Positions 8,217-55,936 of a DNA stretch of 64,000 nucleotides are shown here, in pieces (position 1 is the first letter of the stretch; each line of letters starts with the position of its first letter). Location: the NCBI GenBank assembly GCA_002839355.1, contig PGXW01000001.1:1-64000 (forward strand), in the 5' to 3' direction. Made by a program: the position numbers and the translations under genes. The notes below the pieces were generated by a model. That model made no database searches. It worked only from the letters and a program-made list of their open reading frames with translations, and had not been told where the DNA came from. The stretch comes from Spirochaetae bacterium HGW-Spirochaetae-2. GTDB lineage: Bacteria > Spirochaetota > Spirochaetia > Sphaerochaetales > Sphaerochaetaceae.

Positions 8217-8290
8217 GCCGCCTTAGCTCAGCTGGCCAGAGCACGTGACTTGTAATCTCGGGGTCATCAGTTCGAATCTGATAGGCGGCT
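8217..8290 (+). tRNA. tRNA-Thr (anticodon TGT)
   Basis: This is a 74-base cloverleaf. The acceptor GCCGCCT (8217-8223) pairs with AGGCGGC (8283-8289), the D stem uses GCTC/GAGC, and the T arm is ATCAG-TTCGAAT-CTGAT. The anticodon loop CTTGTAA has TGT at 8251-8253. CCA is not encoded. The anticodon stem CGTGA/TCTCG has one T-T mismatch, which is tolerated but worth noting. Confidence 0.95.
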
Positions 8291-8452: not shown

Positions 8453-8534
8453 GGGGAGGTTCCCGAGCGGTCAAAGGGGGCAGACTGTAAATCTGTTGGC
8501 TCAGCCTTCGAAGGTTCAAATCCTTCTCTCCCCA
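8453..8534 (+). tRNA. tRNA-Tyr (anticodon GTA)
   Basis: This is a class II tRNA of 82 bases. The acceptor GGGGAGG (8453-8459) pairs with TCTCCCC (8527-8533), with discriminator A at 8534. The T arm is GAAGG-TTCAAAT-CCTTC. The anticodon loop CTGTAAA carries GTA at 8487-8489, and a long variable arm (TTGGCTCAGCC region) follows. CCA is not encoded. Confidence 0.95.
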
Positions 8535-14067: not shown

Positions 14068-14069
14068 TT

Positions 14070-14407
14070 GGTGGTCCACACGGTCGCCGATGCAGGCATG
14101 CCTGGCATCGGAGGAAAGTCCGGGCTCCACAGAACATGACGCCGGGTAACACCCGGGAGCCGTGAGGCTATAGAAAGTGCCACAGAAAATATACCGCCCG
14201 TCTTTGACGGGTAAGGGTGAAATGGTGGGGTAAGAGCCCACCGCGGACCTGGCAACAGGGACGGCATGGTAAACCTCGTCAGGAGCAAGACCAAGCAGCA
14301 GGTGGGTTGTTCGTCCATGAGCCTGCGGGTAGGTCGCACGAGCATTTCGGTAACGGAATGCCTAGATAGATGGCCGTAGTAGACAGAACCCGGCTTATGG
14401 TCCACCA
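14070..14407 (+). ncRNA. rnpB: RNase P RNA (class A)
   Basis: This is the catalytic RNA that trims tRNA 5' ends. It shows the universal blocks: GAGGAAAGTCCGGGCTCC near 14109, AGAGCCCACCGC near 14233, and ACAGAACCCGGCTTAT near 14384, which pairs back to form the pseudoknot. P1 is closed by GGTGG (14070-14074) with CCACC (14403-14407). About 340 bases is normal for a bacterial type A RNA. A run of T follows at once and may end transcription. The ends are given to within a few bases. Confidence 0.95.
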
Positions 14408-14424
14408 AATTTTTTTCGTATATC

Positions 14425-47510: not shown

Positions 47511-47859
47511 TTTTCACATTGAGGCTATCTATCAGGTCGTTCATGGCCTGCGCTTCCCGTATGGAGGTGTCGGCTTTGAACGTAAGTCGGGGAGTATTGC
47601 GGGTCTTCATGAGTGCTCCCAACCGTTGCTGTATGAAACCTGCCGCACTTTGGAGTGCCGCGACAGATTGTTCCAGCTTGTTGTCCTCGACAAACGAGGA
47701 GACCCAGACGGTCGCATAGGCCTTGTCCCTGGAAAGCGTCACTTGACTGACGGAAACAAAGGGACTGAGCCCGTGATGTTTTATTTCACGGGTCACAATC
47801 ATGGTGCTGATGGTCTCCTGGATACGGGCTTCAAGCCGCTGATGCGTATAATCACTCAT
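47500..47859 (-). CDS. rbfA: Ribosome-binding factor A
   Basis: This 119-residue KH-type factor is needed for late maturation of the small subunit. It shows HQRLEARIQETISTMI, LSPFVSVSQVTLSRDKAYATV and TPRLTFKADTSI. It lies in the conserved order infB-rbfA-truB and overlaps infB by eight bases. Confidence 0.94.
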   Translation of the reverse strand: MSDYTHQRLEARIQETISTMIVTREIKHHGLSPFVSVSQVTLSRDKAYATVWVSSFVEDNKLEQSVAALQSAAGFIQQRLGALMKTRNTPRLTFKADTSIREAQAMNDLIDSLNVKNEE

Positions 47860-50623
47860 TCGCTTTCAACTTCTTCGCAACTTCGATGACATCTATGACT
47901 TCAAGGGTGTCACCGGATTGCAGGTTCTGGTAATTTTCGATTCCGATACCACATTCAAAGCCGGCCGCCACATCCTTGGCATCGTCCTTGAACCTCTTGA
48001 GGGAGGTGATCTTGCCAGTATGGATCTTTATGTTGTCACGGATTACGTGGACCTGCGCATTGCGCCTGACCTTTCCGTCCGTAACGTAACATCCGGCAAT
48101 CACGCCGATTTTCGGTACTTTGAATATATCTCGGACTTCAACTTGACCAATAACAATCTCTTTCCGTTCCGGGGCAAGCATGCCTTCCATGGCATCCCGG
48201 ATATCGTCGACAGCATCATAGATGATGTTGTACTTGCGGATCTCAATCTTTTCCTGTTCCGCCAAAACCTGTGCCCGTGGTGTCGGTCTGACATTGAATC
48301 CCAAGACCAATGCACTGGAAGCGATCGCAAGGTTGATATCGTCTTCGATGATCGCACCTGCGGAAGCCCTGATGACATTGAGCCTGATATCTTCGTTGGA
48401 AAGCTTTTCCAATGCATTCTGGACCGCTTCGACAGAACCCTGCACATCACCTTTTATGATGACATTGAATTCCTGTATCGAACCGTCTTGCATCTTGTCG
48501 AAAATATTGTCCAACGTGACTTTCTTGACATTCTTCGCTTGTCCTTGACGCTCCAATTCCTGGCGCTTGCCACCGACTTGCCTGGCTTGCTTTTCATTCT
48601 CGGTCACCTGGAACGGATCACCTGCGCCCGGAATATCGCTGAGGCCGATTATTTCGACAGGAGTCGCAGGACCAGCTTCGGTAATCCTGTTTCCATGGTC
48701 ATCGACCATGGCACGGACTTTACCGGGATAGATACCCGCGACAAAGTTGTCTCCGATACGTAAGGTTCCACGCTCCACGATAATCGACGCTACGATACCA
48801 CGTCCTTGGTCGATGCGCGATTCAAGGACTTTTCCTTCGGCCCTAACATTTGGATTTGATTCCAATTCCAACATTTCAGCCTGAAGGAGAATCGAGTCGA
48901 GCAATTCGTCGATACCAATCTTCTTCAACGCGGAGATTTCGCAATACAAGGTGCTGCCACCCCAATCCTCAGGCATGAGTCCATGATCACTCAACTGTTG
49001 CTTGACACGATCAATATTCGCTTCGGGCAGGTCGACTTTGTTCACCGCGACAATGATGGGGACTTTCGCCGCCTTCGCGTGGTCGATCGCCTCGATCGTC
49101 TGTGGCATAACGCCATCGTTCGCTGCGACCACAAGGACGACGATATCGGTAACCTGTGCCCCACGTGCACGCATCATGGTAAATGCAGCGTGTCCGGGAG
49201 TATCGAGGAACACTACATCGCCCTTGCCAGGCAAGGTTACCTTATAGGCTCCGATATGCTGTGTGATACCGCCGAATTCCCCACCCACCACGTCGGTGGA
49301 ACGGATTGCATCGAGCAGTTTCGTCTTACCATGGTCGACGTGTCCCATGATCGTAACGATAGGTGCCCTGTTTTGCATGTCCGCGGGCTTGTCGTCGTCA
49401 ACAGCGATGAGGGTTTCGTCGTATAGCGATACCAAATTGACTTCACAATTGTATTCACTTGCGATCAATGTGGCGACATCGGAATCGATTTGTTGGTTGA
49501 TGGTGACCATCATACCCATTTTCAACAATTTGCCGATGACTTCCGAAGCTTTCAGGTTCATCTTCTTGGCAAGATCCGAAACAGTGATGACTTCCATGAT
49601 ATCGATTTTCTTAGGTATGGGATTCGCGCGATGCTGATCCTTCCGTTTGATCTGGAAATCACGTTCATTGTCACGATCGGGTTTTGAGAAATCCTTCTTC
49701 TTGCGGTAGACCTTTTTCGCCGGCTTCTGCGCCAAAGGATCTACAGGAGCCGACGGAGCACCACCAGGTCCCCCGGAACGGGGTCCTCTGCCAGCAAATC
49801 CACCGCCGCCACCCGGCCTTCCGCCACCACCACCGAAAGGCGGCCTGCCGCCTCCACCGCCATATGGCGGTCTACCGGCACCGGGACCACTCCGTCCAGG
49901 ACCATTGTACGGGGGTCTGCTACCTGGAGCACCACCGCCTTGTGGTCTATAGCCACCCGGGCCGCCAGGACCACCTGGGCCACCAGGACCTTGGGGTCGG
50001 TAACCACCAGGAGCACCACTTCCACCTTGCGGCCTATAGCCACTGGGTGGACCTTGATAGGTCGGCCGGGTTCCCGCATCGCTATTGCGATTCGCATAAC
50101 CACCGACCTGACCTACTTGTCTGGGACCACCGGTGTTTCCCTGTTGGGGACTCCTGGGAGGAGCGGGGTTATTCTTTCGCCATTCGGCATGGGCATGCGC
50201 AGTCTGGCCTTGTCCCGGAACGGGAGGAAGGTTTTTCGGCGCATGTACTACCGGTGTGGAAGGACCTGAATTCGGTGTCCTGCGAAATGGATGTTCCGAT
50301 TTCTTGGGTGCAGGTCTCTCGGAAACCTGTTTTGGGTTCGTCTGAGGAGATTCTTCAACGGAAGTTTTCTCTGAGGTCTGTTCGGGAGCCTTTTCAGCTT
50401 GGACAGGAGCCTTATCTTCAACCTGTTTTTCAACCGGTTTTTCTATGGGTTTGGTTTGAGGTCTGACCACAACGACCTTCTTCTTCACCACAACCACTTT
50501 TTTCTTTTCAACAGGACGCGAAGACTCGGCCTCGTTTTGTGACGAAGGTTGTACGGCACTGGGAGCCGTTCCACGCGCATGCTTAATTAAGGTTGTCTTA
50601 GGTTTCTTATCTTCTTCCGTCAT
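47852..50623 (-). CDS. infB: Translation initiation factor IF-2
   Basis: This 923-residue GTPase delivers initiator tRNA to the 30S subunit. The first 170 residues are charged and rich in Lys, Glu and Pro. Residues about 165-290 are a Gly/Pro/Arg-rich low-complexity tract with repeated [14 protein letters not shown] and RPPYGG units. An IF2-N domain follows ([23 protein letters not shown]). The G domain has [30 protein letters not shown] and NKVD. Domains II, III and IV complete it. ATG 50623 with GGAAG upstream is preferred over a TTG four codons earlier that abuts the nusA stop. Confidence 0.96.
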
Positions 50624-50635
50624 AGTTTCTTCCAA

Positions 50636-52099
50636 TTACTCCTCGTCTACTTCCACTTCTTCGAAACTCAACCCGACACCACAATTGGGGCAACTTGTCA
50701 TGTCCGGTGTCAATGTATGGCCACATTCTGGACAGAGGAACTGTTGTTCGATTTCCGAATCATCCTCTTCTTCCACGATGTCAACATATTCTCCGAGGAC
50801 GCTGTGGATCTGACGTACCTCGTCTTCAGTAATATCACCAAGACTCCCAATGTCTTCTTCTGTAAGATTGACGAACTCTTCGACAGTATAGATGTCATGG
50901 AATTGCAGTTTCTCAACCAATTCCTTAGCCAGTTCCTGTATGTCGCCGAGCATCATCTCCCCCTCTTCCTCTTCGAAGAATTCGGGTTCGGCGGCAGGCA
51001 TATCGCTGAACAATGCATCGACACGTTCTTTAGTCTCGACATCGAGATCCATTTCACGATACTGGTCAAGCGTCTTTACGTCAATGATCCAGTCGGCAAG
51101 TTTGTTTGCAAGTCTTACATTTATGCCCTGTTTTCCAATCGCGAGCGAGAGTTGTGAATCCTCCACGACGGCAACGGCTGTACGCTTGTGCTCGTCGAGT
51201 ATGACCACGCGCTTGATCTCGGCGGGGGAAAGGCAGTTCTTGATATACTCCATGGGATTGGGATCGTATCTCAACACGTCGATACGTTCTCCTTCCATCT
51301 CCCGCATTATCGTCTGGACACGGATGCCCTTGAGACCGACGCAGGCGCCGACAGGATCAAGATCGGTGCGATGCGAGAATACCGCCACTTTCGTGCGATA
51401 GCCCGGTTCACGTACAATCTTGTGGATCTCTATCGAATGGTCGTATATCTCGGGAATTTCGAGTTCGAACAGTTTCTTGACAAATTCGGCGTGGGTCCGC
51501 GATAGCACGACACGCAATTGTCCGTGCTCGGGTTTCTCGACCTGGTACACATAGCACTTGATCTTGTCGTTCTTGCGATAGATTTCCCGGGGACTCTGGT
51601 ATTTCTTCGGCAGTACGCCTTCGATCTTACCAAGATCTATGAACATGTCACCGTTGTTTTCACGTTGGTAATAACCGATGATCATTTCGCCTTCTTTTGT
51701 CTTGAACTCAGAATAGAGGGTGTCTTTCTGGATTTCACGAAGGTCCTGCTTGGCTTTTTGCTTGGCACTCTGAACCGATATCCGATCGAAGGTCTTCGGA
51801 TCGATCGGAATCAAGACCTCGTCGCCAATATCGCAATCCTCGTGGAGCTCACGGGCATCTGTAAGTGAAATCTCATCGAATTCACCGTCGAATTCATCGT
51901 CTTCCACGATCATTTTTCTTGCAAACAATTGCACATTGTCGTGTTCTTCATTGAACTCGACCACAGCATTGTCGCTAGTTCCGAATTTGCGCTTGTATGC
52001 GGCAAGCAATAAACCTTTTATGGTTTCGAGCACAAGATCCTCACTGATCCCCCGCTCATTTACAAGAGTGCGTATCGCCTCTCCCAAATCATTGGACAT
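50636..52099 (-). CDS. nusA: Transcription factor NusA with C-terminal zinc ribbon
   Basis: This 487-residue factor acts in pausing, termination and antitermination. An N-terminal RNA polymerase-binding domain (LVLETIKGLLLAAYKRKFG) is followed by S1 (GEMIIGYYQRENNGDMFIDLG), KH1 (DPVGACVGLKGIRVQTIM) and KH2 (LSLAIGKQGINVRLANKL). A helical domain near residues 400-445 comes next. An acidic linker and the zinc ribbon LCPECGHTLTPDMTSCPNCG (C-x2-C-x10-C-x2-C) end it; this ribbon is not part of the usual NusA. ATG 52099 follows GGGAGG; an ATG six codons earlier has no site. Confidence 0.94.
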   Translation of the reverse strand: MSNDLGEAIRTLVNERGISEDLVLETIKGLLLAAYKRKFGTSDNAVVEFNEEHDNVQLFARKMIVEDDEFDGEFDEISLTDARELHEDCDIGDEVLIPIDPKTFDRISVQSAKQKAKQDLREIQKDTLYSEFKTKEGEMIIGYYQRENNGDMFIDLGKIEGVLPKKYQSPREIYRKNDKIKCYVYQVEKPEHGQLRVVLSRTHAEFVKKLFELEIPEIYDHSIEIHKIVREPGYRTKVAVFSHRTDLDPVGACVGLKGIRVQTIMREMEGERIDVLRYDPNPMEYIKNCLSPAEIKRVVILDEHKRTAVAVVEDSQLSLAIGKQGINVRLANKLADWIIDVKTLDQYREMDLDVETKERVDALFSDMPAAEPEFFEEEEGEMMLGDIQELAKELVEKLQFHDIYTVEEFVNLTEEDIGSLGDITEDEVRQIHSVLGEYVDIVEEEDDSEIEQQFLCPECGHTLTPDMTSCPNCGVGLSFEEVEVDEE

Positions 52100-52124
52100 T
52101 GTTACATATCCTCCCATGCGTATG

Positions 52125-52520
52125 CTAATTTGGCCTTATGAACATGGCCGTACGGAATATGATATTCTTCATGATCCCTTCCAACCAAGCACTACAGCTG
52201 CTGTCGTAGACCCGGCACCGTTTGCCGGAAAACAGCGAAAACTCGTACAGGTCCCTGAAAATCCTTTGCACACCGGGTGTGGATACCTCAAGGTCGATGT
52301 TCCGTTCTCCCTCCAACAAACTCAAGCGGGGAAATATGATGCGGTGGGCTTTCGCACACTCGTTGATTCCGGCTGTATGTTCGTTGTTGGTGACCGTCAC
52401 CACTATGTGGGTTTCATCCCGATGATCATCCCTTCGGACGTCTACCACCACCAACCCGATTGGATTGAGGACAGTCGAGAATTCCTTGAACAATGCATCG
52501 TTTCTAATGATATTTTGCAA
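52125..52520 (-). CDS. rimP: Ribosome maturation factor RimP
   Basis: This 131-residue protein has the two RimP domains: LNPIGLVVVDVRRDDHRDETHIVV, then LEVSTPGVQRIFRDLYEFSLFSGKRCRVY. The STPG motif is characteristic. No ATG fits. TTG at 52520 is chosen because GGAG at 52529-52526 is well placed, and the product then starts just before the first conserved helix. It heads the rimP-nusA-infB operon. A terminator-like hairpin lies right before its ribosome site. Confidence 0.85.
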   Translation of the reverse strand: MQNIIRNDALFKEFSTVLNPIGLVVVDVRRDDHRDETHIVVTVTNNEHTAGINECAKAHRIIFPRLSLLEGERNIDLEVSTPGVQRIFRDLYEFSLFSGKRCRVYDSSCSAWLEGIMKNIIFRTAMFIRPN

Positions 52521-52530
52521 GCTAACTCCA

Positions 52531-52558
52531 AAAAAAAGGGATCGGCTTCTGCGATCCC
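52531..52558 (-). terminator. Terminator hairpin in the rimP leader (possible attenuator)
   Basis: On the minus strand, GGGGATCG pairs with CGATCCC (plus-strand arms 52538-52545 and 52551-52558), followed by seven T at 52537-52531. The T run runs straight into the GGAG of rimP. It lies downstream of the predicted rimP promoter, so it could end comF transcripts, act as an attenuator, or both. Confidence 0.7.
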
Positions 52559-52582
52559 CAAAAATCAATACTAACTGAAGAA

Positions 52583-52611
52583 AGCCTAATCCATTTGGCA
52601 ACTATTGTCAA
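52583..52611 (-). promoter_or_regulatory. Promoter for the rimP-nusA-infB operon
   Basis: On the minus strand, TTGACA (52611-52606) overlaps the comF stop codon, and TAGGCT (52588-52583) follows after 17 bases. The -35 is perfect and the -10 is weak. Confidence 0.5.
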
Positions 52612-53303
52612 TCCATGGCCAAACAAAGTCCCAGAATGGGTATATCGACGATTTCGGCTATAAGGGAAATGCATGTTTCGAAGGTGGATCCGGTAGTCAT
52701 GACATCGTCGATCACCAGTACGGTCGTGCAAGAATCGAGCAATTCAAGTTCATTCCGATCGAGCCTAGCCTTCAGTACATATGATCGCGTGGATTCGAGT
52801 TTCCGCTGTTGCCTCCCCAACATCTTGAGTTCGCCCGAGCCCTGCCGTTCAAGCAGATGTATCAGCATACGTTTTGGATTGGCACACAATTCCTTTCCCA
52901 CCAACTCCATATGGTCCCAGCCTCTGGTTCGTCTGCTCCTTTCGCTACAAGGTACGGGAACAATCGCCACTTGGTTTGCATTTCCCACTACCCGTTCTAT
53001 TTCACGAGACATCAACGCTGCGATAGGTTTTGCCAAACCACGAATCCCGGTCTTCTTATAGCGGACAACCAGTTGCTTGAGATTGCCACTATAGGAACCG
53101 ATACGATTAACCATCGGGCTCTTTCCTATATGGAGACACACCGAGTGTTCATGAAGTAGCGGGACACCACATTCGCCACACATGGCATATGCATTCGTTC
53201 GGTATACCGACAGCAAAACGTCATGCCAGCATACTTCGCACAAATTCTCTTGGATAAGGGTGTACATACCGCATGCTTGGCAGATTCCGTATTCGACATC
53301 CAT
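52608..53303 (-). CDS. comF: ComF-family phosphoribosyltransferase-like protein
   Basis: This protein of 231 residues (243 from a TTG start) has N-terminal cysteine pairs (CQACG, CEVC, CGECG) forming a zinc-ribbon-like part. A phosphoribosyltransferase fold follows, with VAIVPVPCSERSRRTRGWDHM and the PRPP-binding motif VLVIDDVMTTGSTFETC. ComF proteins support DNA uptake in competent bacteria, but the family is also common in non-competent ones. The start is uncertain: TTG at 53339 overlaps the mutS stop as TTGA, while ATG 53303 gives a compact start just before the first CxxC. Confidence 0.88.
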   Translation of the reverse strand: MDVEYGICQACGMYTLIQENLCEVCWHDVLLSVYRTNAYAMCGECGVPLLHEHSVCLHIGKSPMVNRIGSYSGNLKQLVVRYKKTGIRGLAKPIAALMSREIERVVGNANQVAIVPVPCSERSRRTRGWDHMELVGKELCANPKRMLIHLLERQGSGELKMLGRQQRKLESTRSYVLKARLDRNELELLDSCTTVLVIDDVMTTGSTFETCISLIAEIVDIPILGLCLAMD

Positions 53304-53335
53304 ATGGGACGTATCCCGGAAAACTGTCTTCTGCT

Positions 53336-55936
53336 TCAATCGGTCCGGGTGATCTCTTCTTGCAACCCGGCGAGGAATTGCATAGCCTCGAGCGGGGTCG
53401 AGTTATCCAGCGCGTAGTGGCGAATCTGTTCGACCAGTCCCTCATAACGGGAGTCGTGTTGCGGCTCCTCGGAAACATTTCCGGTAAACAGGTCCAGCTG
53501 CATGGAATTTCCCGCAAGGGAATAGTCTGCGAAATGTTGCTTTTGGAATTGAGCGGCACTTCGTATTACAGCCGTTGGGATTCCAGCCATTTTCGCTACA
53601 TGCAAGCCGTACGAGCTATCGGCTACCCCCGGTTGGATCTTGCGGAGGAATATGATGTTCCGCTTCGATTCCGCTACGGCGAGGGTAAGCAATTGCATGC
53701 CTGAAGTATCCAACATGGTCAATTCGTGGTAGTGGGTGGCAAACAGTGTCTTTACACCCATCTCCACCATCGAACGCATGACTGCATAGGCAATCGACAT
53801 GCCGTCCTGGGTACTGGTTCCCCTTCCGATTTCATCCATGATCGCAAGCGAGCGCGGTGTGGCGGTTCTCAATATGAAGGCAGCCTCCTGCATCTCAATG
53901 AGAAATGTGGATTCTCCCCTAGCCAGATTGTCACTCGCTCCCACCCGGCAAAACAACTTGTCGGTGAGTCCGATACGAGCCGATGACGCCGGAACATATG
54001 AGCCTATATGGGCAAGAAGCACTATCAATGCATTTTGACGAAGGTAAGTCGATTTACCTGCCATGTTCGGCCCGGTTATCAGACAGAACCGTTCGTCGTC
54101 GGCTCCCATGGACAATCCATTGGCTACAAATTGGCCTTTGCCCATATTCTGCTCGACAACCGGGTGTCGACCATTCTCGATAACCAGCAGGGTGTCGTCC
54201 GCGACCTCGGGTTTACAATACTGGTGTATCCTTGCAACTTGGGCTAACGATTGGAGACAATCCAATGTGGAAAAGAATTGTCCGAGACTGAGAAGCGATG
54301 AAGTGTGCTCCGCGGTACGTGAGATCAACTGTTCGAAAAGTTCCCGTTCCAGCGTTTCAGCCTTATCCCCGCTAGCGAGGATCTCCTGTTCCAATTCCAC
54401 AAGCTCGTCGGTTGTATACCGTTCCGCATGTACCAGTGTTTGTTTTCGATAGAACCAGGTTGGGACCTTGTTTCCGTGGGCCTTTGGAACCTCCAGATAG
54501 TGTCCGATTATCCTATTTTGGGAAAGCTTGATGGTTGGAATCGCCGTATCTTCCTTTATGCGGTTGACATAGGCTTCCAAATTCCTGGCTCCGTGGTTCG
54601 TCAAGCCACGCAATCTATCCAATTCGGTATTGTAGCCTGGACGTATCACGCGACCCGGGTTGTATGGACCTTGGCAATCCTCACGTATGGCGGCCAACAG
54701 TGTCTCCATAAGCGACACGAGGTCCGACATGGCCGAATCCCGAAGATGTTCTCCCAGCAACGTACGGTAATAGTCCGCGTTCCGTTCGGTCAACTCGAAG
54801 AACGTAGCGATCGATTGTTGTATCGCGACCAGGTCCTGCGGGTTGGCGCGATGCATGGCGACCCGGGTTGCCAAACGGGAGAGATCCCGTGTTCCACCAA
54901 GTAGGGTTCGTATACGCTGATGCTCGGTAGATTCGGTGATGAACCAGGTCACCCAATCTTGCCGCCGCAGGATATCCTCCCGGGTTGCCAGGGGAGACGC
55001 GATCCATGACTTCAGTAGTCTCGCACCGCCCGAGGTACAGGTCTTGTCCATGGAACTGAACAAGGTCCGTGCAGAAGAACCTTCCTGCAAATTTGTCAAC
55101 AGTTCGAGGTTCCTGCGAGTGGATTCATCGATAAGAAGAGTTTTTTCCCTGTCGACCTTACGAAATGTATCGATATGGGAAAGAGAAGCCTTGGAGGTTT
55201 CCAGTATATACCTGAACAGGGCTCCGCAGGCATGCAATTCGGTATCTTCAGGTGAAAGCCCGAATTGTTTCAGTCCGACGGTTCCCACATGCCCGGTCAA
55301 CTGTGAGAAGCCTTGGCTCTTCGCAAAATACCACGACGGGAGACGGGTTTTCATGACTTCCTGCTGGTCGATCACCTGGGCATACTGTTGGTTGGAGAAG
55401 TAATCCTCCTCATGCACCAGGATTTCCCGGGGCAGCAATTCCCCGAACAGGGCACGCAAGGAATCGAACCTATCCTCGAGTGGCAGCAGGACCATGGAGA
55501 ACACACCGCTCGACAGTTCGCAATACGCGCAGGCAATCTCATCCTTCGCGAGAAACACGGAGATAATGTGGTTGTTGGTGGCCGCATCGAGGAATTCGTC
55601 CTCTATAACCGTGCCGGGTGTTATTGTCTGGACAACCTCTCGTCTTGCTATGGTCCTGTTCGCACCAGGCATTTCCACCTGCTCGCAGACAGCTATCTTC
55701 TTCCCTGCGTCAAGGAGACGTTTGATATAGTTCTTCGAGGCATGGTACGGAATCCCGCACATGGGAACACCATTTCTGGCCGTGAGGGTCAAATTGAGAA
55801 GTCGTGACACCTCTTTGGCATCATCCATGAACATTTCATAGAAGTCGCCCAATCGAAAGAACAACACCTCTCCCTGATGCGCTTGCTTCAGCTCGAGGTA
55901 CTGTTCCATCATGGGCGTGGTCGTCTTGCCCTCCAT
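53336..55936 (-). CDS. mutS: DNA mismatch repair protein MutS
   Basis: This 866-residue mismatch-recognition ATPase has the N-terminal mismatch-binding domain with LFFRLGDFYEMF (the F-x-E wedge), connector, core and clamp domains. The ATPase has ITGPNMAGKSTYLRQ (Walker A), MDEIGRGTSTQDG (Walker B) and FATHYHEL. ATG 55936 starts MEGKTTTPMMEQY, matching the usual MutS start. A TTG five codons earlier overlaps the bamA stop as TTGA and may be used instead. No mutL lies in the window. Confidence 0.96.
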   Translation of the reverse strand: MEGKTTTPMMEQYLELKQAHQGEVLFFRLGDFYEMFMDDAKEVSRLLNLTLTARNGVPMCGIPYHASKNYIKRLLDAGKKIAVCEQVEMPGANRTIARREVVQTITPGTVIEDEFLDAATNNHIISVFLAKDEIACAYCELSSGVFSMVLLPLEDRFDSLRALFGELLPREILVHEEDYFSNQQYAQVIDQQEVMKTRLPSWYFAKSQGFSQLTGHVGTVGLKQFGLSPEDTELHACGALFRYILETSKASLSHIDTFRKVDREKTLLIDESTRRNLELLTNLQEGSSARTLFSSMDKTCTSGGARLLKSWIASPLATREDILRRQDWVTWFITESTEHQRIRTLLGGTRDLSRLATRVAMHRANPQDLVAIQQSIATFFELTERNADYYRTLLGEHLRDSAMSDLVSLMETLLAAIREDCQGPYNPGRVIRPGYNTELDRLRGLTNHGARNLEAYVNRIKEDTAIPTIKLSQNRIIGHYLEVPKAHGNKVPTWFYRKQTLVHAERYTTDELVELEQEILASGDKAETLERELFEQLISRTAEHTSSLLSLGQFFSTLDCLQSLAQVARIHQYCKPEVADDTLLVIENGRHPVVEQNMGKGQFVANGLSMGADDERFCLITGPNMAGKSTYLRQNALIVLLAHIGSYVPASSARIGLTDKLFCRVGASDNLARGESTFLIEMQEAAFILRTATPRSLAIMDEIGRGTSTQDGMSIAYAVMRSMVEMGVKTLFATHYHELTMLDTSGMQLLTLAVAESKRNIIFLRKIQPGVADSSYGLHVAKMAGIPTAVIRSAAQFQKQHFADYSLAGNSMQLDLFTGNVSEEPQHDSRYEGLVEQIRHYALDNSTPLEAMQFLAGLQEEITRTD

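Follow-up and report, generated by a model that had tools for sequence, protein, structure and literature searches.

A conserved terminator in the rimP-nusA-infB leader of Spirochaetia, a candidate attenuator under proposed NusA control

The rimP-nusA-infB operon of a Spirochaetia genome begins with a promoter, a compact terminator hairpin and a ribosome site packed into a predicted leader of 56 nt, and comparison with relatives indicates that this leader terminator is real and conserved in the class. On the same comparative grounds it very probably limits the amount of the operon that is transcribed. We read it as a promoter-proximal attenuator that would work without an antiterminator and have NusA as its most likely regulator, and assign this reading a probability of roughly two in three. 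Feedback by NusA on the leader of its own operon appears the most likely form of control because the operon encodes NusA and because there are precedents in B. subtilis and S. agalactiae. Termination in the leader of this operon is thereby extended to a deep, little-studied lineage, in a minimal form of ~47 nt. So small a leader leaves few options besides fixed or factor-set termination, and offers a clean template on which to ask whether NusA recognises the sequence of a stem. In what follows, the window is the whole stretch of DNA that was analysed, 64,000 nt in length.

Layout and predicted behaviour of the leader

The features of the locus are listed in Table 1. The initial annotation had placed a TTGACA with a weak -10 element at 52583-52611, followed by a hairpin, seven T and the GGAG of rimP; the promoter is present as claimed, on the minus strand, and the T run does merge into GGAG, but there are eight T in it, and seven only once the first, which can pair, is set aside. 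Relatives have a -10 hexamer of the TA....-type at a spacing of 16-18 nt from the -35 element, and 34 of 57 leaders have an A at the predicted start. The upstream open reading frame, which we take to be comF-like from its look, has its TGA stop (52610-52608) inside TTGACA; the stop of the upstream frame falls within TTGAC of the -35 element in 12/57 leaders, the window among them. On the minus strand the hairpin is spelled GGGGATCG-CAGAAGC-CGATCCCT (52559-52537). Its stem joins GGGATCG (52558-52552) with CGATCCC (52544-52538), to which a wobble pair G52559-U52537 is added at the base, and the fold adds a C52551-G52546 pair with one C bulged.

Table 1. Features at the rimP leader, with neighbouring genes and other RNA genes of the window
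Feature	Position	Strand	Basis or remark
-35 element TTGACA	52606..52611	-	sequence; TTGA kept in relatives
-10 element TAGGCT	52583..52588	-	weak, 3/6 consensus match; 17-nt spacer from -35
Predicted transcription start, A	52576	-	prediction, 7 nt past -10
Lead-in, 17 nt, U-rich, ahead of hairpin	52560..52576	-	sequence
Intrinsic terminator hairpin GGGGATCGCAGAAGCCGATCCCT, -12.0 kcal/mol	52537..52559	-	sequence, fold, conservation
U-tract, eight T; expected RNA 3' end	52530..52537	-	sequence
Shine-Dalgarno GGAG, abutting U-tract	52526..52529	-	sequence
rimP, start TTG at 52520-52518	52125..52520	-	RimP_N domain (Pfam)
nusA, proposed feedback factor	50636..52117	-	NusA_N and NusA-like KH (Pfam); C-terminal zinc ribbon
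infB-like ORF, next operon gene	47852..50635	-	named by reading translation
comF-like ORF, upstream	52608..53339	-	Pfam: DZR_2 match only, below cut-off
RNase P RNA class A	14068-14412	+	
Two tRNA genes	8217-8290, 8453-8534	+	

In the proposed mechanism, RNA polymerase would initiate near 52576, and after ~47 nt the GGGAUCG/CGAUCCC hairpin with its U-tract could end transcription and release a short leader RNA, and read-through would produce the operon mRNA. Termination is predicted to be partial. The ribosome site would be synthesised only past this decision point, and translation of rimP could therefore not steer the choice. NusA would promote termination at the hairpin, so that high NusA would give less read-through and low NusA more.

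Taken singly, the leader sequence is of uneven distinctness. The hairpin alone is strong for its composition (z -3.5, with 0 of 200 shuffles equalling its energy), the 47-nt stretch through the end of the T run less so (z -2.28; 6/200 shuffles as good), and the whole 56-nt leader reaches z -1.62 only (11/200). Plain pattern searching over 10 kb returned six terminator-like sites where 9.7 were expected, which is not above chance, and its list did not contain the rimP promoter because the -10 element is weak. As far as sequences can tell, it is conservation, and not single-sequence statistics, that lifts the leader terminator above chance.

Conservation and independence from the upstream gene

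Loci for comparison were assembled around NusA. The window is from a genome of Sphaerochaetaceae type, judging by the six named loci that its NusA matched, which belong to assemblies labelled Sphaerochaetaceae, Spirochaetales or 'Spirochaetae'. Of 61 near genomes, 58 gave a NusA match, and leaders were taken for 50 of these, the eight lowest-scoring or split matches being left out; the leader of one locus (L045) extended past the end of its contig. To these we added, by hand from a search of the phylum, 10 loci within the class and 36 outside it, the latter chosen as one per family label, except that one family was omitted and one used twice. The final set holds 59 in-class (Spirochaetia-type) loci, with 26 family labels by our count, and 36 loci outside. 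A uniform finder was applied to the ~220 nt before the RimP match, accepting a single hairpin of -6 kcal/mol or below with a T-rich tail; for five loci without a RimP match (L016, L046, L077, L081 and L090) the search window was placed from nusA. A promoter was counted if it was of TTGA type, scored 10 or more and had its end 10-40 nt ahead of the hairpin. As background, genes were called greedily on the window and on twenty 20-kb stretches of in-class genomes, 352 in all.

The finder reports a leader terminator in 57 of the 59 in-class loci and in 25 of the 352 background genes, and terminator plus promoter in 51/59 and 0/352, respectively; the loci come from related genomes sharing descent and hence are not independent trials. 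The initial annotation had staked its reading on relatives having a terminator in this leader; lack of one is not what the class presents, and the reading of the parts as promoter, terminator and ribosome site is supported, their order being conserved in the class. Outside the class a terminator is found in 21 of 36 leaders and both parts in 11. A hairpin GAGUCC...GCGACUC followed by eight T can be seen by eye, further upstream, in one of the two in-class loci that the finder missed (L044). In the other (L046, genome G049) nusA directly follows a comF-like gene; rimP gives no match there, the leader contains no terminator, and NusA is without the zinc ribbon considered below.

Could the hairpin instead serve to end transcription of the comF-like gene upstream, its position before rimP being incidental? 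That gene has the same direction in the window, where it ends at 52608, and the upstream gene likewise runs in the same direction in 45/57 leaders. The promoter, however, sits between the comF-like stop and the hairpin, and promoter and terminator in this order are the combination seen in no background gene. Moreover, 11 of the 57 terminator-keeping leaders have their upstream gene on the opposite strand (by greedy ORF call, which is doubtful for L016; L047, L107 and L115 are closely related among themselves), so a terminator of the upstream gene it can hardly be. We rejected this explanation on promoter position and divergent neighbours, and regard it as largely refuted and very improbable; the leader terminator appears independent of the gene before it.

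Classical attenuation, by an alternative antiterminator, a leader peptide or a riboswitch, would be in keeping with the position of the terminator in a leader. Against it stands the predicted lead-in, 6-31 nt across the 57 leaders and 17 nt in the window, which would seem too short for a leader peptide, an aptamer or a riboswitch. The alternative antiterminator pairing that the initial annotation had suggested comparing among relatives is not evident between lead-in and 5' arm in 55 leaders: pairing of the two is no better than in shuffles (mean z -0.06; 1/55 below -2) and attains half of the hairpin energy in 7/55. Rfam gives no match above gathering score in the leader. Its best weak match, AniS, was taken as chance, scoring 20.3 bits where the cut-off is 50. 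On lead-in length, lead-in pairing with the 5' arm and Rfam, classical attenuation is largely refuted, and the least probable of the explanations considered here. With no antiterminator in evidence, factor-set or fixed termination would be expected rather than RNA switching, and termination set by NusA is the form of it that we prefer.

The stem and its possible readers

An alignment (A1) and a covariance model (R1) were made from 45 of the 50 near-genome leaders, omitting L036, L044, L045, L046 and L049, where the hairpin string was mismatched, no hairpin had been chosen, or upstream DNA was lacking. All seven consensus pairs of the alignment show double-sided changes. Paired cells amount to 88.6% vs 75.9% in shuffles and double-changed cells to 53 vs 23.2, with 0/500 shuffles as high in either case, and both measures peak at the true register. 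Two of five co-variation measures are unremarkable, namely the number of pairs with double changes (75/500 shuffles) and that of further pair types (35/500). We take the co-variation as moderate evidence for the stem, in view of the relatedness of the rows and of a structure derived from that same alignment.

In the window's own genome R1 scores the leader at 74.2 bits and the second-best site at 26.1. Among 198 class genomes it finds exactly one site each in 67, of which by our count 19 have leaders in the model and 48 do not; all 64 sites that could be checked (of the 67) share the strand of nusA and precede it by 411-610 nt. No site is found at E<=0.001 in the other 131 of 198 genomes, and the misses include at least five of the model's own source genomes (G037, G043, G045, G051 and G055). 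R1 is insensitive and therefore gauges the specificity of the locus, not prevalence. A nusA match is absent in 11 of the 198.

The stems share a signature, RRUCG in the 5' arm and CGRY in the 3' arm, which occurs in 40 of 57 in-class leaders vs 1 of 170 other terminators from such genomes; this pattern and the one given below were composed after inspecting rimP leaders, so that the counts favour the leaders. The signature goes beyond generic need, though descent also preserves sequence, and it argues, as does the same-operon feedback stated for B. subtilis in the review PMC12288461, against a fixed throttle, in which the terminator would cut operon expression by a constant factor without regulation. 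We consider such a throttle unlikely, while acknowledging that there is no evident antiterminator or ligand structure, and that the hairpins resemble good ordinary terminators. Their median energy is -11.7 kcal/mol vs -10.35 for the 170 others, the leaders being slightly more stable (Mann-Whitney p 0.0003, restricted to hairpins at -8 or below, the energy cuts having been -8 kcal/mol for background terminators and -6 for leaders). NusA-dependent terminator hairpins in B. subtilis are weak, and with that in mind the slightly greater stability of the leader hairpins counts against dependence on NusA.

The conserved signature would also suit a reader other than NusA, such as RimP, NusG or an unknown protein, which would recognise the stem by its sequence and set termination. 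RimP feedback is called conceivable by Naville & Gautheret (PMC2965389), and L046, without a rimP match, is also without a leader terminator (n=1); yet published candidates lean to NusA (PMC12288461, PMC2965389, PMC4448216), and we hold such a factor to be decidedly unlikely. Returning to NusA as the regulator, the leader stem might be a sequence-specific recognition element, with the NusA (or RimP) of this lineage reading RRUCG...CGRY and that of another clade of the phylum GUGG...CCRC. This is a speculation to which we give low odds. If the stem were read in this way, termination would be addressed to one hairpin per genome instead of being generic.

A candidate for the reader would be the zinc-ribbon-like tail of Spirochaetia NusA, for which the comparative test is mixed. 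The window NusA (50636-52117, minus strand) ends in CPECG...CPNCGVGLSFE. A C-terminal CxxC...CxxC ribbon is present in 29 of the first 30 in-class NusA sequences and in 26 of 29 further ones whose end was fetched, and similar tails occur in part of the phylum. Outside the class a second stem signature, GUGG...CC(A/G)C, accounts for 8 of the 21 terminators found (L076, L086, L095, L098, L099, L103, L104 and L105); the pattern as first written, GUGGC...GCC(A/G)C, matched 6/21 and was loosened. In these out-of-class loci the ribbon is absent from NusA in 8/8 of the GUGG type, present in 4/6 of the GAGUC/RRUCG type and present in 11/22 with another stem or none. In a tree of NusA N-terminal sequences the eight GUGG rows fall within a single clade, which has 11 rows and no ribbon in any of them. 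Four loci run counter to the pattern, having the GAGUC/RRUCG signature and no ribbon: L084 and L094 outside the class, and L035 and L109 within it. NusA ends without a ribbon in L094 and likewise in L096. A link between ribbon and signature as a rule is not supported, the association reducing to one or few events with counter-examples; on these sequences it is suggestive at most.

Relation to described leaders

The closest counterpart is the 'rimP-leader' attenuator of Naville & Gautheret (2010; PMC2965389), for which NusA was proposed as regulator. As described there, it likewise consists of a terminator in the 5' leader of rimP-nusA-infB, with no larger conserved element, no antiterminator in its general form and an unusually conserved stem sequence; the terminator found in 57/59 in-class leaders and the want of a lead-in antiterminator or larger conserved element (n=55; lead-in vs 5' arm) agree with that description. 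The stem itself differs. The published motif GGGc(...)gCCC is not that of the spirochaete stems: GGGC...GCCC occurs in 0/57 in-class and 0/21 out-of-class stems and in 2/170 background terminators, and the window stem has GGG...CCC, but with A-U, not C-G, as its fourth pair. We therefore describe the spirochaete leader, by its sequence features, as of the rimP-leader kind with a lineage-specific stem signature. The main text of PMC2965389 has no occurrence of 'Spirochaet', and spirochaetes may be among its species, given its phrase 'the majority of species'; the examples of leader termination that are named in the papers cited here, as far as their text goes, are from Firmicutes and Gammaproteobacteria. 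Rfam family RF01770 (rimP) shares the gene context, but its covariance model misses the spirochaete leader: it has no match at cut-off in the window leader or in 21 near genomes, and E. coli was the sole one of 14 control genomes to match.

For B. subtilis, the review PMC12288461 states that nusA is autoregulated through termination in its leader, which NusA stimulates (Mondal et al. 2016). The spirochaete locus resembles it in having a leader terminator that would restrict transcription into the nusA operon, with a promoter and then a terminator upstream of nusA, here known from the DNA sequence; the leader, however, is given as 180 nt in B. subtilis (PMC2965389), against the predicted 56 nt. 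A further counterpart is S. agalactiae gbs0413-gbs0418, the same operon, where by RNA-seq the short and the long transcripts begin at a common start, with termination 31 nt after that start at a predicted terminator, and where NusA autoregulation has been suggested (PMC4448216); the very short leader is common to both, by RNA-seq there and by prediction here.

The literature was searched for B. burgdorferi termination and RNA ends, Leptospira transcription starts and spirochete rimP; among the matches listed, judged by titles and the starts of abstracts, there was no work on a terminator in the spirochaete rimP/nusA leader, and for a NusA zinc ribbon in spirochetes none was found. We sought the B. 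burgdorferi rimP/nusA locus under bb0799 and bb0800, presumably its gene numbers. Neither these nor rimP occur in the main text of the B. burgdorferi RNA-end paper PMC10319736.

A minor observation concerns the gene behind the leader. The distance from the rimP start to the nusA start is 67 nt shorter in the window than in the relatives L002-L004, with NusA 99% identical between the window and L002. The 67-nt gap lies near the rimP 3' end and thus puts the last residues in another frame (131 aa, with an altered C-terminus); it is either a real deletion or an assembly fault.
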